Shown here: piece after piece, positions 5,789 through 11,545 of the stretch | Layout: the number at the start of each line of letters is the position of its first letter | Numbering within the stretch: the stretch's first letter is position 1 | Origin: Chlorobiota bacterium | Lineage (GTDB): Bacteria; Bacteroidota; Bacteroidia; Bacteroidales; B39-G9 | Assembly (NCBI GenBank): GCA_013152655.1 | Contig: JAADFW010000041.1 | Coordinates: 1 to 32,822 of the forward strand | Reading direction: 5' to 3' | DNA: 32,822 bases | Made by a program: the position numbers and the translations under genes | Notes under the pieces: model-generated | Told to the model about the DNA's origin: nothing | Database searches by the model: none | Seen by the model: the letters and a program-made list of their open reading frames with translations, nothing else

Positions 5789-6373
5789 ATGAAACTTACA
5801 ATTAAACATCAGGAAAGTTTTTCGCGCGGTGAGCTTTTATTGCGTACATTTTTTGGATGGATTTACATTTTAATTCCACATGGTTTTATACTGGCCTTCT
5901 TAGGAATTTGGTCGTGTATTTTAACATTTATATCTTTTTGGGCTATTCTGTTTACAGGAAAATACCCGAAAAGTTTTTTTGAATACCAGGTTAACTTGCA
6001 AAAATGGGCACTAAGAGTAAACTCAAGAATGTATAATTTAGCTGACGGGTATCCTGCTTTCGGCTTAAAAGCTAATGATGAACACACTGATTTAGAAATA
6101 CCTTATCCTGAAAATTTAAACAGGGGAATGGTTTTAGTAAAATTCTTTTTTGGTGCTATTTACGTAATAATCCCTCATTTGTTCCTATTGTTTTTTAAAG
6201 CTATTGCAGTATGCGTAATAGCATTTTTAGCTTGGTGGGTTGTCTTGTTTACAGGAAATTATCCAAAATCGTGGCATGCTTTTAATGTCAGGCTTTTCCG
6301 CTGGCAAACAAGAATAAACTTATATTTAACATTTATGACAGATGAATATCCTCCGTTTAACGGGAAAGAATAG
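5789..6373 (+). CDS. Membrane protein with two tandem DUF4389-like domains
   Basis: Internal duplication: RGELLLRTFFGWIYILIPHGFIL...LFTGKYPKSFFEYQVNLQKWALRVNSRMYNLADGYPAF versus RGMVLVKFFFGAIYVIIPHLFLL...LFTGNYPKSWHAFNVRLFRWQTRINLYLTFMTDEYPPF. Confidence 0.75.
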   Translation: MKLTIKHQESFSRGELLLRTFFGWIYILIPHGFILAFLGIWSCILTFISFWAILFTGKYPKSFFEYQVNLQKWALRVNSRMYNLADGYPAFGLKANDEHTDLEIPYPENLNRGMVLVKFFFGAIYVIIPHLFLLFFKAIAVCVIAFLAWWVVLFTGNYPKSWHAFNVRLFRWQTRINLYLTFMTDEYPPFNGKE

Positions 6374-6407: not shown

Positions 6408-6456
6408 AGCCATTGAGAAAGATTATTTCACATTACATTTTCTCAATGGCTTTTTT
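6408..6456 (+). terminator. Terminator-like hairpin, 13-bp stem plus T6
   Basis: AGCCATTGAGAAA (6408-6420) pairs with TTTCTCAATGGCT (6439-6451), followed by T-tract. The right arm overlaps the REase 3' codons on the - strand. Confidence 0.65.
6427..6456. repeat. Left copy of 30-bp direct repeat flanking the R-M module
   Basis: TTCACATTACATTTTCTCAATGGCTTTTTT, identical to 8614-8643. Confidence 0.93.
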
Positions 6457-7158
6457 CAATCGCTCAATTTCTATTCTTATTTCGTCAATTACTTCTTTGT
6501 TTTTAATAATTTTCTTATCACCGGTTCGAGTTGAAAAAACTACAAAAACTTTCCCACCATATTTATTTTCAAAGTCTTGAAAACTTGCACTCATTCTTTC
6601 CGTAATCTTGTAATTTCCAAAATTTGCATTTGCAGTAATTGGCTTAATTTGAATACCAAAATACTTGTTTCCAACTTTTCCAAGATAATCAATATCACCG
6701 GCGTGGTCTAATTCAGGGTCGCTTTCTTCAAACTCTATTTCCGGGAATATTTTTGCAAGTCCATCATTTATTACTGATTTTTCAAGTAAAAAGCCATCAT
6801 AAGTACGAACAATTGTGACTTCGTAAATGTAATCTTTGCAATCTTGCAATGTTAAATCTTCAAAAGCTGCTGTCCACTCAGGAATAACTACTTCTGTTAT
6901 TTTAGCATAGAGTCTTTCACCAAGTTCGTCTAATGTTTCTTTCGTTATTTTGACACTGTCTTTTTTCTTTGTGTAAGCTTTCTTAAAATAAAAATCTTCC
7001 CATTCTTTAAATGCTTTTGGTTGACATTCACGGATTAGAGCCATTACAGCATCAACTTTATTCGGCCTTGTAAGTTGATAGGTATTGCTTGCATAGTTCA
7101 ATACTTTTTCCTTTTTGCCAAAAGGCTTTGCATATTTTTTAAACTCCTTATTTGCCAT
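6433..7158 (-). CDS. Type II restriction endonuclease, putative MjaI-like family
   Basis: Overlaps the MTase stop as TAATG (translational coupling). PD-(D/E)xK-like pattern ELDHAGDIDYLG...YFGIQIKP. MjaI-like assignment is from memory of family features. Confidence 0.7.
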   Translation of the reverse strand: MANKEFKKYAKPFGKKEKVLNYASNTYQLTRPNKVDAVMALIRECQPKAFKEWEDFYFKKAYTKKKDSVKITKETLDELGERLYAKITEVVIPEWTAAFEDLTLQDCKDYIYEVTIVRTYDGFLLEKSVINDGLAKIFPEIEFEESDPELDHAGDIDYLGKVGNKYFGIQIKPITANANFGNYKITERMSASFQDFENKYGGKVFVVFSTRTGDKKIIKNKEVIDEIRIEIERLKKAIEKM

Positions 7159-8456
7159 TATACAGTTTCATTGCCTAAATACATAAATTTTTCTTTGTTC
7201 TTATAATTAAATGCCAAATCAGCATCTGCAAAACCATTTTTTATCAGGTGAGCATTAAGGAATGTTTTATTTTTTAAATACAAATAAACCATTAAATGGT
7301 TATTCTCATCATGTTTGGTTTCATCATATTTTAGAAAAACTTTTTGTCCTTTTGTTTTGAGCTGCAAAAATTCAATGGCTTTTCCATTACCTTCCTTTTT
7401 TTCTTTAACTCCAATAAGGCGAACAATCAAACCATTATTTAGTTTTATTAGTTCAGGACTAATAATTTCTTTTATTGAATAATATTCTTCTCTTTTGGCC
7501 GAACCATTTTGGTCAATTTTTGAACCGAATTGAAGTTTCTTAGGGTCTGTCTTTTTATCAAAATTATGAAAATCTTTAAAAATATATGGTAGTTCTTTTA
7601 TTTCATTCTTAAAGTTAATATTTAGCTTTTCTTGTTTTATAAAATTATAGTCAGAATTAAAAATATCACTTTGATTTATCTCTAACTTTTTTTCAATGTA
7701 AGGTATAAATTCAGGGTTCATTTCATAACCCACAGAATTTCTATTTAATTTTTTTGCTGCAAGTGAAGTTGTTCCACTTCCAAGAAAAGGGTCAAGGACA
7801 GTGTCGTCAACAAATGAAAACATTTTTATAAGCCTTTTAGGCAATTCTTCCGGAAACATTGCAATATGTCCGTCTTGCCTTGCTCCGCCAAAGTTCCAAT
7901 GGCCATCAAAATATGTTTTCCACTCTTCTTTTGTCATTTTTGACTGTTCCTTAATTTCCTTACTTGGTTTTATTGGTGTCCCCAGTTTCTTAAACAATAA
8001 GATAAATTCGTAATCAATTGACAAGATACCATTTCTTGGTGTTGGATAACTACCCATTAACGAAGCTCCGCCAGTAGTGTTTGATGTGGTTTTTTTCTGC
8101 CAAATTATTGCACCCATATAATCAAAGCCAATAGCTTCGCAGAATTTTATTATTTCTGTTCTTATTGGAATTACTTTGTATCTACCATAATATACTGCTC
8201 TGGCAAATTGGTCTCCAATATTTACACATAAACGACAACCATTATTTAGAACTCTATAACTTTCTTTCCAAACAAGGTTTAAGTTATTAATGTATTCTTC
8301 ATAACTGTCATTATATCCAATTTGGTTTTCTGTTCCATAATCTTTTAATTGCCAGTACGGTGGTGATGTAATAACCAAATCAACTGATTTATCTTCTAAT
8401 TCAGCCATTTTACGGCTGTCTCCATTTATAATTTTATGTTTCGTTTTAAAACTCAT
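7158..8456 (-). CDS. Site-specific DNA methyltransferase (N4-cytosine type) with C-terminal SNase-like domain
   Basis: TSPPYWQLKDYGTENQIG (SPPYW catalytic motif), VLDPFLGSGTTSLAAKKLNRNSVGYEMNPEF SAM-binding motif. C-terminal GLIVRLIGVKEK...AIEFLQLKTKGQKVFLKYD...VYLYLKNKTFLNAHLIKNGFADADL resembles the staphylococcal nuclease fold. Confidence 0.88.
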   Translation of the reverse strand: MSFKTKHKIINGDSRKMAELEDKSVDLVITSPPYWQLKDYGTENQIGYNDSYEEYINNLNLVWKESYRVLNNGCRLCVNIGDQFARAVYYGRYKVIPIRTEIIKFCEAIGFDYMGAIIWQKKTTSNTTGGASLMGSYPTPRNGILSIDYEFILLFKKLGTPIKPSKEIKEQSKMTKEEWKTYFDGHWNFGGARQDGHIAMFPEELPKRLIKMFSFVDDTVLDPFLGSGTTSLAAKKLNRNSVGYEMNPEFIPYIEKKLEINQSDIFNSDYNFIKQEKLNINFKNEIKELPYIFKDFHNFDKKTDPKKLQFGSKIDQNGSAKREEYYSIKEIISPELIKLNNGLIVRLIGVKEKKEGNGKAIEFLQLKTKGQKVFLKYDETKHDENNHLMVYLYLKNKTFLNAHLIKNGFADADLAFNYKNKEKFMYLGNETV

Positions 8457-8613
8457 TTATCTATCCGTATAATTTAAAATATAAAGATAATCATTGTATT
8501 TTTCGCTGTGAAATTTATTTTCCGCTACTGTTTCATTAACTTGCTATTAATTAGTACCAAAAAGAAAACTCATCATTTTAAGTCTTTGATAAATTTATTT
8601 CATTTCATTTCAC

Positions 8614-8643
8614 TTCACATTACATTTTCTCAATGGCTTTTTT
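8614..8643. repeat. Right copy of 30-bp direct repeat flanking the R-M module
   Basis: Identical to 6427-6456; followed by two further T residues before TCTCC. Confidence 0.93.
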
Positions 8644-8651
8644 TTCTCCTT

Positions 8652-11315
8652 TTATCGTAATTTCTTACATTGCTTCAAATATGATTTTCTTAAATATTTA
8701 AACCATTTCTCATCAGTAATATACTGTTTTACAAAAACTTTTGGAATATTAATATTAACACCCTTGTAATCTTTAATTGCCAAATGAGTTCCCAAAAGAT
8801 TCTGATTACTTTCTGTCCATTTTGCCGGATAACCTTTTGAATATAAAAGTTTTAAATATTTCAATGCTTCATCTAACTGGTTATTTTCTGCAAAATATTT
8901 TACCGAATAATTTATAAATCCATTTACATTATTACTTATAAAATTATCTAAAGGAGCAAGTGTTATGCCTGAATCTGCATTAATATTAGAGTCTTTATAA
9001 AATTTTTCAAGATTTATATAATTAATTAATGCATCCTGATAACTTTCATCTTCAATTTGTCTTGATATTTTAATAAGCTGTTTTTGAAAATATACAATAT
9101 TGCTTATTTCGTCTCTGTTTTTAATAGCTTCCTTGGTTAATATTTGGCACTCGGAATTTTCATCTGCAATACGTATTGATTTTATCAATGCATTGTCTGC
9201 TTTAATATATTTTCCTTCTTCAATAAAACGAAGTGCTGTGTTTTTCTGCACATCATAATCTAATTGCGCATTTTTACACTTTTGTGAAAATATATTTGAT
9301 TTTAACTCTTCAAAACTACTTTTTAAATCATCGGATATTTTTATTTGATAATTCTCAACCATTGATGTTGCAACAGAGTAATGCTTTTTTGCCTCATTTA
9401 TTTTGTTCTCAGCAGCTCTTCGTTTACCTATTTTTAGTTCTGTTATAATGGCTAACTTAGTTGAATAACTATACAATGAATCAAATTCCTCCTGTTTCGG
9501 AAGTTTATAATCTAACTGTATTTTATTGGCATCAAGTAGTAAATTAACAGCTTTTTCATACTTCTTTACTGATAAATATGCCCTGGCATCTTTAATATTT
9601 TTCAAATAATACTTCTCAAAGATTTGTTTCTCCAGTTTTTCTAATTTTTCATTGGGTTCTAAATGATTTTTTATTTGCTGAACTTTTAACCTGTTAATTA
9701 AATTCTCAGCTATTTCATACTGCTGGTTATCGTAATATATTTGTACACTATCAATTAATATTCTATAAATTCCCTGATTTGATGCAGTAATTCCTTCGTA
9801 AATTTCATTATTACAAGGAATTACAACAAATTTCTTACATAATTTTTCAGCATAAGTATATTGTTGGTTAGATTCAATAAAGTTTTCATTTTTTAATAAA
9901 GAATCTGCATAATCAATTACATTCTCATACAGTACTGATATTAACGGGATAATTTTATTATTTATCTTAATATAGTAATTGTTTTTATTCTTATAATTAA
10001 CGGCACTGTCTATCATTATCTCCGCATCTTCAAATGTATTCTCACTAATATCTGTTTTTATTTGCTCCAACATTTGCATATAAATTCCGGTATGCGATGT
10101 TGTATATTCATTATACAAATTTTCATCGCAAAGTGAATTTGAAATATTTTTACATAAATTACTTACAGTGCGTAAAAAGAGCATGGCCGAGTCATATTTT
10201 TCAACCTGATTATACTGCTTAGCAATTTTAATATAATTATGGCTTACACGTTTAGCAATTTTAATTCCGGCTTTTTGCAATTCCGGCGAAAGATTCATTT
10301 TATTAAATACATTTAACAAAACTATTGCACATGAATCATTCATTTCTGTATTTAAAAAATGCTCTGCAATCTGTAACCACGACGGGACATAATTGTTCTT
10401 AACTTCAATAGATTTTCTAAAATATTTTGTTGCCGAAATAGTATCATATTGCTCTAAATATAGTAATCCCCTTTTATAATAAGTTACATGCATATTTTGT
10501 AAAGCATAATTTATTTGCTCCTCATACTTTTTTGTATTGGCTTGCAGGTTTTTTAACTTTACAATAAAATCAGCAGGGTCGTTATTATTCAAATTTAACT
10601 TAGCGTTGAATTTCTTGTTTTCAACACTTTTAATAAATTTTTTAGTTTTTTCAACCTGGTTTCTATACTTAACTAATTCATCTATATTCTTCAAGTCAAT
10701 TTCTTTTATTGAATTCAGTTCCAGATTAATAAGTGCTAAATAATTATAATAATCATCAATCTGATTTGTTTTATTATCAAATTTTTCTTTTGTTTTATCG
10801 CTATAATTAAAAAAGTAAATTTTATTAACTATATCATTAACCGTAAAATAATCGAACCCATTATAATTAAAAACAATTCTTTTTGAATTATTCTTTGAAA
10901 TCATGGCTTTATTACTTTCAAAATGAGTAATATTTTGTCCATCTTTTCTTACGTCAAAAACTATTGAAACATTTGAAGGTTGAAGAAAAGAAGTAATATT
11001 AAAGCCTTTATAGATAATATTATCAGTTGCTTTTATATTTAATAGTTGTATTGTAACAACATTGCCTGTTGAATTTGGATTAGAACTTAGTAATAAATTA
11101 AATTGAAAATGAATTTTAAAATCCTCAATATCACCGGAAAAACTTTCTTTCAATTTTTCAATAATTAAATTACTATTCTTTAAACTACCCGGAATATATT
11201 CCACAATAGCCGAATCCAAAAATGTTTTTTCCGTGGGTACTTTTTCTTGTGCCGACAGGTGAATTGTAAAAAACAGTATTATTAAATTTGCCAAATAAAA
11301 ACTTTTTTTAAGCAT
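8652..11315 (-). CDS. Large exported protein with TPR-like helical repeats, function unknown
   Basis: Probable start at MLKKSFYLANLIILFFTIHLSAQ (signal peptide), 50 codons inside the ORF-track start of 11465. Repeated A-x-x-Y/F helical-pair patterns such as YLEQYDTISATKYFRKSIEVKNNYVPSWLQIAEHFL. Confidence 0.65.
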   Translation of the reverse strand: MLKKSFYLANLIILFFTIHLSAQEKVPTEKTFLDSAIVEYIPGSLKNSNLIIEKLKESFSGDIEDFKIHFQFNLLLSSNPNSTGNVVTIQLLNIKATDNIIYKGFNITSFLQPSNVSIVFDVRKDGQNITHFESNKAMISKNNSKRIVFNYNGFDYFTVNDIVNKIYFFNYSDKTKEKFDNKTNQIDDYYNYLALINLELNSIKEIDLKNIDELVKYRNQVEKTKKFIKSVENKKFNAKLNLNNNDPADFIVKLKNLQANTKKYEEQINYALQNMHVTYYKRGLLYLEQYDTISATKYFRKSIEVKNNYVPSWLQIAEHFLNTEMNDSCAIVLLNVFNKMNLSPELQKAGIKIAKRVSHNYIKIAKQYNQVEKYDSAMLFLRTVSNLCKNISNSLCDENLYNEYTTSHTGIYMQMLEQIKTDISENTFEDAEIMIDSAVNYKNKNNYYIKINNKIIPLISVLYENVIDYADSLLKNENFIESNQQYTYAEKLCKKFVVIPCNNEIYEGITASNQGIYRILIDSVQIYYDNQQYEIAENLINRLKVQQIKNHLEPNEKLEKLEKQIFEKYYLKNIKDARAYLSVKKYEKAVNLLLDANKIQLDYKLPKQEEFDSLYSYSTKLAIITELKIGKRRAAENKINEAKKHYSVATSMVENYQIKISDDLKSSFEELKSNIFSQKCKNAQLDYDVQKNTALRFIEEGKYIKADNALIKSIRIADENSECQILTKEAIKNRDEISNIVYFQKQLIKISRQIEDESYQDALINYINLEKFYKDSNINADSGITLAPLDNFISNNVNGFINYSVKYFAENNQLDEALKYLKLLYSKGYPAKWTESNQNLLGTHLAIKDYKGVNINIPKVFVKQYITDEKWFKYLRKSYLKQCKKLR

Positions 11316-11545
11316 AATACAATGGTAATTAGTTGAATATCCTGTACAATATTTATTTAGTTGTTCAAAACATAATAATAAGTTTACTAAGTTAAAAATT
11401 TTGTACATCATTTCAATTTTGTTCAAATAACTATTATAAAACATAGTGTAAATAATTGCCGACAATTTTGGATTATTATCTTTGCTGGCAAATTCTTAAT
11501 TATTGTTTTCGTTCACTTTATAAAACTGAAATAAAATAAAGTAAA

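Follow-up and report, generated by a model that had tools for sequence, protein, structure and literature searches.

The locus analysed here raises the question of how a restriction-modification (R-M) operon, unaccompanied by any transposase, came to lie between two identical copies of a 30-bp sequence, one of which forms part of a hairpin. The window denotes the whole 32,822-nt stretch of DNA that was analysed, to which all coordinates refer unless a contig is named. The answer developed below, and considered probable, is that an MjaI-type R-M operon was inserted into a terminator hairpin with a target duplication of 20-30 bp, one of the two joints being located at a microhomology.

An MjaI-type R-M operon and its relatives

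The operon is composed of two genes on the minus strand, specifying a 241-aa MjaI-family type II restriction endonuclease (6433-7158; PF09568, 1.5e-27; PDLC03450, 1.3e-84) and a 432-aa type II N6/N4 DNA methyltransferase with a TSPPY motif (7158-8456; PF01555, 5e-44; PDLC03259, 1.2e-182). From these protein matches the locus is assigned as a predicted MjaI-type type II R-M system, comprising an RE_MjaI endonuclease and an amino-methyltransferase. Residues 358-421 of the methyltransferase additionally give a weak staphylococcal-nuclease-like C-terminal match (PF00565, 6e-6) in a region that is aligned in homologues. The tetranucleotide CTAG, the putative recognition sequence of such a system, is strongly under-represented in the window (7 occurrences against 38 expected), but it is similarly scarce in genomes, relatives included, in which no MjaI homologue was detected.

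The order of methyltransferase and endonuclease genes is kept among the R-M homologues, the closest of which, in genome G004 of the same family, reaches up to 93% identity. The homologous locus of G002 (C5, L019, 4865-6852) encodes a methyltransferase 90% identical to that of the window and an endonuclease only 60% identical, a difference that hints at separate histories for the two genes. A search of plasmids returned only distant Paenibacillus matches.

A perfect direct repeat and a hairpin at the ends of the operon

The 30-mer TTCACATTACATTTTCTCAATGGCTTTTTT is present at 6427-6456 and again at 8614-8643 with zero mismatches, as the first-pass annotation had stated; it constitutes the best direct repeat of the whole window, with 0 such pairs expected from 100 shuffles. 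The 13-mer TTTCTCAATGGCT within it has three copies in the whole genome of 4.0 Mb, every one of them at the R-M locus (6439-6451 and 8626-8638 on the plus strand, and 6408-6420 on the minus strand), which agrees with the single inverted copy reported earlier. This inverted copy, AGCCATTGAGAAA, is the left arm of a hairpin that pairs with 6439-6451 through a perfect 13-bp stem around an 18-nt loop. The hairpin on the left side is complete (6408-6451, -19.3 kcal/mol) and is followed by T6, whereas the right copy of the repeat yields a fold of only -0.1 kcal/mol and runs on as T8 toward the stop codon of the right-hand gene.

The left copy comprises half of the loop, the right hairpin arm, the T tract and the 3'-terminal part of the endonuclease gene. 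It had been proposed that the repeat exactly encloses both genes; this does not hold, given that positions 6433-6456 of the left copy are the endonuclease 3' end including its stop codon. The unambiguous inserted segment extends from 6457 to 8613 (2157 bp, or 2187 bp including one repeat copy), and ends, upstream of the methyltransferase gene, with DNA that has no match in relatives (8522-8613), the right junction being 8613/8614. The GC content of the insert (30.1%) equals that of the window (30.3%), for which reason composition is uninformative on its origin. The earlier observation that neither a transposase nor an integrase is present is borne out by the absence of a Pfam or NCBIfam match to either among the neighbours scanned.

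With up to 3 mismatches allowed, none of 294 other genomes of the order contained the 30-mer, and its 22-mer core had no match in viral contigs. A misassembly at the 30-bp repeat is unlikely, even in a draft assembly of 287 contigs. The identity of the repeat copies sets only a loose upper limit on the age of the insertion, which had been proposed to be recent.

Reconstruction of the target site

The gene to the left (5789-6373, plus strand) encodes two DUF4389 domains (PF14333, 3.5e-18) and is convergent to the R-M genes, while the gene to the right (8652-11465, minus strand) specifies a long repeat-rich protein that has no Pfam match and is TPR-like by inspection only. In silico joining of 6426 to 8614, by which 2187 bp are removed, generates one hairpin consisting of AGCCATTGAGAAA, 18 nt, TTTCTCAATGGCT and T8, approximately 15 bp from the stop codon of the right-hand gene and approximately 35 bp from that of the left-hand gene. 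The single-copy hairpin of the empty site would accordingly read AGCCATTGAGAAAGATTATTTCACATTACATTTTCTCAATGGCTTTTTTTT. Its location between the stop codons of two convergent genes, the convergence having been noted earlier, is the textbook position in which a bidirectional terminator is expected. The further claim that the joined site makes a better terminator than the present left hairpin is not clearly substantiated for the left-hand gene, the two stabilities being about equal (-18.1 and -19.3 kcal/mol, respectively).

Through the insertion, the 8652-11465 gene has lost the terminator on its side and now points into the R-M operon: it lies upstream of the operon and is co-directional with it, no terminator separating the two. 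An empty site was sought by means of both flanking proteins, among relatives and in one scan covering 84,980 species, and the two neighbours were never adjacent elsewhere; relatives of the left flanking protein (54-65%) are found in other Bacteroidales, never beside the same right neighbour. Because this gene pair occurs nowhere else, the compared genomes contain no empty site, and for the R-M locus itself that site is a reconstruction.

Family homology stops inside the left repeat copy

The endonuclease of the window terminates in ...ERLKKAIEKM*, a C-terminus shown by none of the compared homologues (approximately 20 genomes). The G004 (93% identical) and G002 (60%) proteins both end in ...ERLKKASL*, followed by a long imperfect attC-like inverted repeat, and that of G055 ends in ...ERLKKANS*. 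At the DNA level, the window and G004 are identical at 64 of 80 positions as far as AAAGCCA, against 21 of 60 beyond it; G004, G002 and G055 all have ...AAA(G/A)AAAGCCA in common with the window before diverging, and in G055 an identical TTGAAAAAAGCCA precedes the divergence. Family homology spans 6447 to approximately 8521, and in every relative 6408-6446 is outside the R-M unit.

Since this break falls inside the 30-bp repeat, directly after AAAAAAGCCA, the half of the hairpin that lies within the gene is target sequence. Neither the remaining 20 bp of the left repeat copy nor the arm at 6408-6420 is R-M sequence, and the repeat, being absent from homologous R-M units whose homology ends within it, belongs to the target and not to an element. 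The residues IEKM* of the endonuclease would then be derived from the target. The segment TGGCTTTTTT (6447-6456, plus strand; coding strand AAAAAAGCCA) is the putative microhomology, approximately 10 bp which may have been present both in the donor's endonuclease gene and in the terminator that served as target. On the donor side this stretch reads AAAAAAGCCA in G055 and AAAGAAAGCCA in G004, and because of the latter the donor match may be only 7-10 bp. No donor comparison is available for the right joint because 8522-8613 has no relative.

A model for the insertion

Based on these comparisons, a bare two-gene unit of approximately 2.16 kb would have entered a bidirectional terminator hairpin between convergent genes. 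At the first joint, the endonuclease 3' end, ...AAAAAAGCCA, would have matched approximately 10 bp of the terminator, formed by its A-tract and the base of the hairpin, while the second joint would lie 20 bp deeper into the hairpin loop. As the two joints would overlap on the target, 20-30 bp of the latter would now be present twice. The endonuclease reading frame would have been kept, its last codons and stop being borrowed from the hairpin. Such an event would represent illegitimate recombination of incoming DNA, of an end-joining or template-switch type, as opposed to transposition, and its product may have been kept by selection for a working R-M unit, the expression of which may now be aided by read-through from the right-hand gene.

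A joint at a shared stretch with a second joint 20 bp further on would account for the duplicated bases and the uninterrupted frame, and for the lack of both a recombinase and recurrent ends. The shared stretch would also fit a chance joint that was preserved by selection, the two being indistinguishable here. What can be read directly at the locus is the repeat, the break in homology inside it, and the bases that the window has in common with homologous R-M genes.

Alternative origins of the repeat

It was considered whether a circular R-M element could have been integrated at the terminator, in Campbell fashion, by a tyrosine recombinase, with the 30 bp representing the att core. Terminators can act as att sites, 30 bp is a plausible core size, and tyrosine recombinases are encoded in the genome (e.g. 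on G000:C205). This is nonetheless an unlikely origin: the insert consists of two genes only, neither of them a recombinase, the core would be required in the donor endonuclease gene, yet it is found in no relative, and the 30-mer flanks nothing else in its own genome or in the order.

It is somewhat less probable still that the hairpin is part of the R-M operon and that the right copy was left over from a neighbouring copy of the operon through tandem duplication followed by deletion. The left hairpin is directly 3' of the endonuclease gene and could be its terminator, but the downstream sequence differs in relatives, the right copy, with its T8 tract, is located immediately after the right-hand gene in the manner of a terminator, and two extra events would be required.

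A slightly weaker case can be made for the insertion of the operon as an integron gene cassette with the hairpin as its attC site, an improbable reading. Long attC-like inverted repeats follow the endonuclease gene in G004, G002, G055, G017 and G404, relatives are often situated within arrays of attC-like repeats of 75-280 bp (G002, G053, G065, G085 and G177), and the end of the G004 cassette abuts native DNA at GTTAATG. However, as judged from folds and by eye, the window hairpin with its perfect stem is unlike these sites; its right copy is only half a hairpin, where an array would provide whole sites on both sides; and no integron integrase reached the curated cut-off in the genomes scanned, the IntI-like proteins in these lacking the middle part of the profile. 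Apart from this reading of the hairpin, an ultimate derivation of the R-M unit from an integron-cassette reservoir is a reasonable guess in view of the attC-like ends of its relatives.

Among the IntI-like proteins is an integron-integrase-like tyrosine recombinase of the own genome, which has an N-terminal extension but lacks the IntI-specific middle part (G000:C205, L109, 196-1344), and similar matches are located near contig starts in G004, G002, G017 and G052. By eye, attC-like inverted-repeat arrays also surround small genes (PAD_porph, NYN/OST-HTH) in the own genome (G000:C34, L159, 3200-9250; G000:C46, L170, 3600-5250), and these are probably cassette clusters without an integron integrase. 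Direct repeats that bracket R-M homologues in G053, G065, G404, G085 and G002 were rejected as target duplications, several of them being within attC-like arrays.

Finally, the first-pass annotation had offered two routes of entry, of which long-target-duplication insertion on a terminator hairpin is favoured by the homology break inside the endonuclease gene. The other, a non-autonomous transposon bounded by 13-bp terminal inverted repeats (TIRs; 6408-6420 and 8626-8638), is highly improbable: inverted 13-mers do occupy both outer ends, and some R-M units with imperfect inverted repeats and short duplications are reported (PMC3874152), but the two supposed TIRs are the arms of one hairpin, one of them duplicated, the 13-mer has no further genome copy and no target duplication outside it, homologous units end at 6447 and not at 6408, and the search suggested earlier for other cargo between such ends found none (13-mer in the own genome; 30-mer in the own genome and the order).

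A toxin-antitoxin insertion with an empty site

A parallel to insertion of the R-M operon by target duplication is found in G004 (C279, L018, 4800-5699), where a UPF0175 and PIN/DUF3368 toxin-antitoxin pair is located between 58-bp direct repeats (98%). The repeat spans promoter-proximal DNA and the opening codons, start codon included, of a host gene named iorA by inspection of its sequence. The congener G003 (C46) has a single repeat copy and no toxin-antitoxin pair at this position, and thus represents the empty site. The only other homologue of the pair found, in G002, is without the duplicated sequence and starts with MDNTTLKTE against MQNSMLKTE in G004; the match between the two continues as far as ...GAATTATAGTTTG and stops at the joint, immediately ahead of the second G004 repeat copy. 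The toxin-antitoxin and R-M cases have the same architecture, a start codon being borrowed in the former and a stop codon, from the terminator, in the latter.

Direct repeats of at least 20 bp positioned 0.25-6 kb apart were surveyed in 798 kb (20%) of the own genome. Apart from one locus, the other cases resemble repeats of genes or of tRNA regions, cassette arrays, or an IS or IS200-type gene, and no general insertion rate can be claimed. This one locus, L157 (G000:C32, 595-2160), is unexplained: a direct repeat of approximately 125 bp, corresponding to a gene 3' end, surrounds two small ORFs without Pfam match and an apparent transposase remnant, and is possibly another long target duplication.

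Discussion

R-M units with long and variable target duplications and no mobile element are described for Helicobacter in PMC3874152, PMC3031569 and PMC1643837, all of which cite Nobusato et al. 2000 for long-target-duplication insertion in Helicobacter pylori. The window fits this type of insertion in its architecture, and its perfect 30-bp repeat exceeds the usual transposon duplications. By the features tested, the unit does not classify as an integron cassette, a TIR element or an integrase element. As in the H. pylori cases, a bare R-M unit without transposase lies between direct repeats that stem from the target; unlike them, the duplication measures 20-30 bp in place of the order of 100 bp, the host is of Bacteroidales type, no sister genome offers an empty site, and the position of one joint can be assigned to shared bases within the endonuclease gene. 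The MjaI-type cassettes of G004, G002, G055, G053 and G065 carry homologous genes, but these end in attC-like inverted repeats, an end that the window copy lacks, and some are arrayed.

In an experiment with PaeR7I, recounted in PMC3031569, an R-M plasmid moved by reciprocal illegitimate recombination at 1-3 bp of identity. This resembles the window in having joints at very short identity and no element of its own, and differs from it in involving a whole plasmid, shorter identity and no long duplication. The type of movement is already known, and the window adds to it a joint that is better resolved than usual, together with the parallel toxin-antitoxin case.

The manner in which R-M systems enter chromosomes without a transposase has been an open question since the Helicobacter comparisons. 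At this locus the endonuclease gene ends in duplicated target sequence, which allows one joint to be read base by base, and this joint speaks for a short stretch of common sequence and not for a recombinase. As a tentative and rather speculative generalization, addiction modules of this family (R-M and toxin-antitoxin) might leave integron-like cassette arrays and enter ordinary sites of the chromosome by a common transposase-free process, with joints wherever a module gene agrees at its end with the end of a host gene or with its terminator, a start or stop codon of the host being borrowed and 20-60 bp of target duplicated. The occurrence, in the same family, of a toxin-antitoxin insertion with a real empty site suggests that the process is not peculiar to R-M systems.
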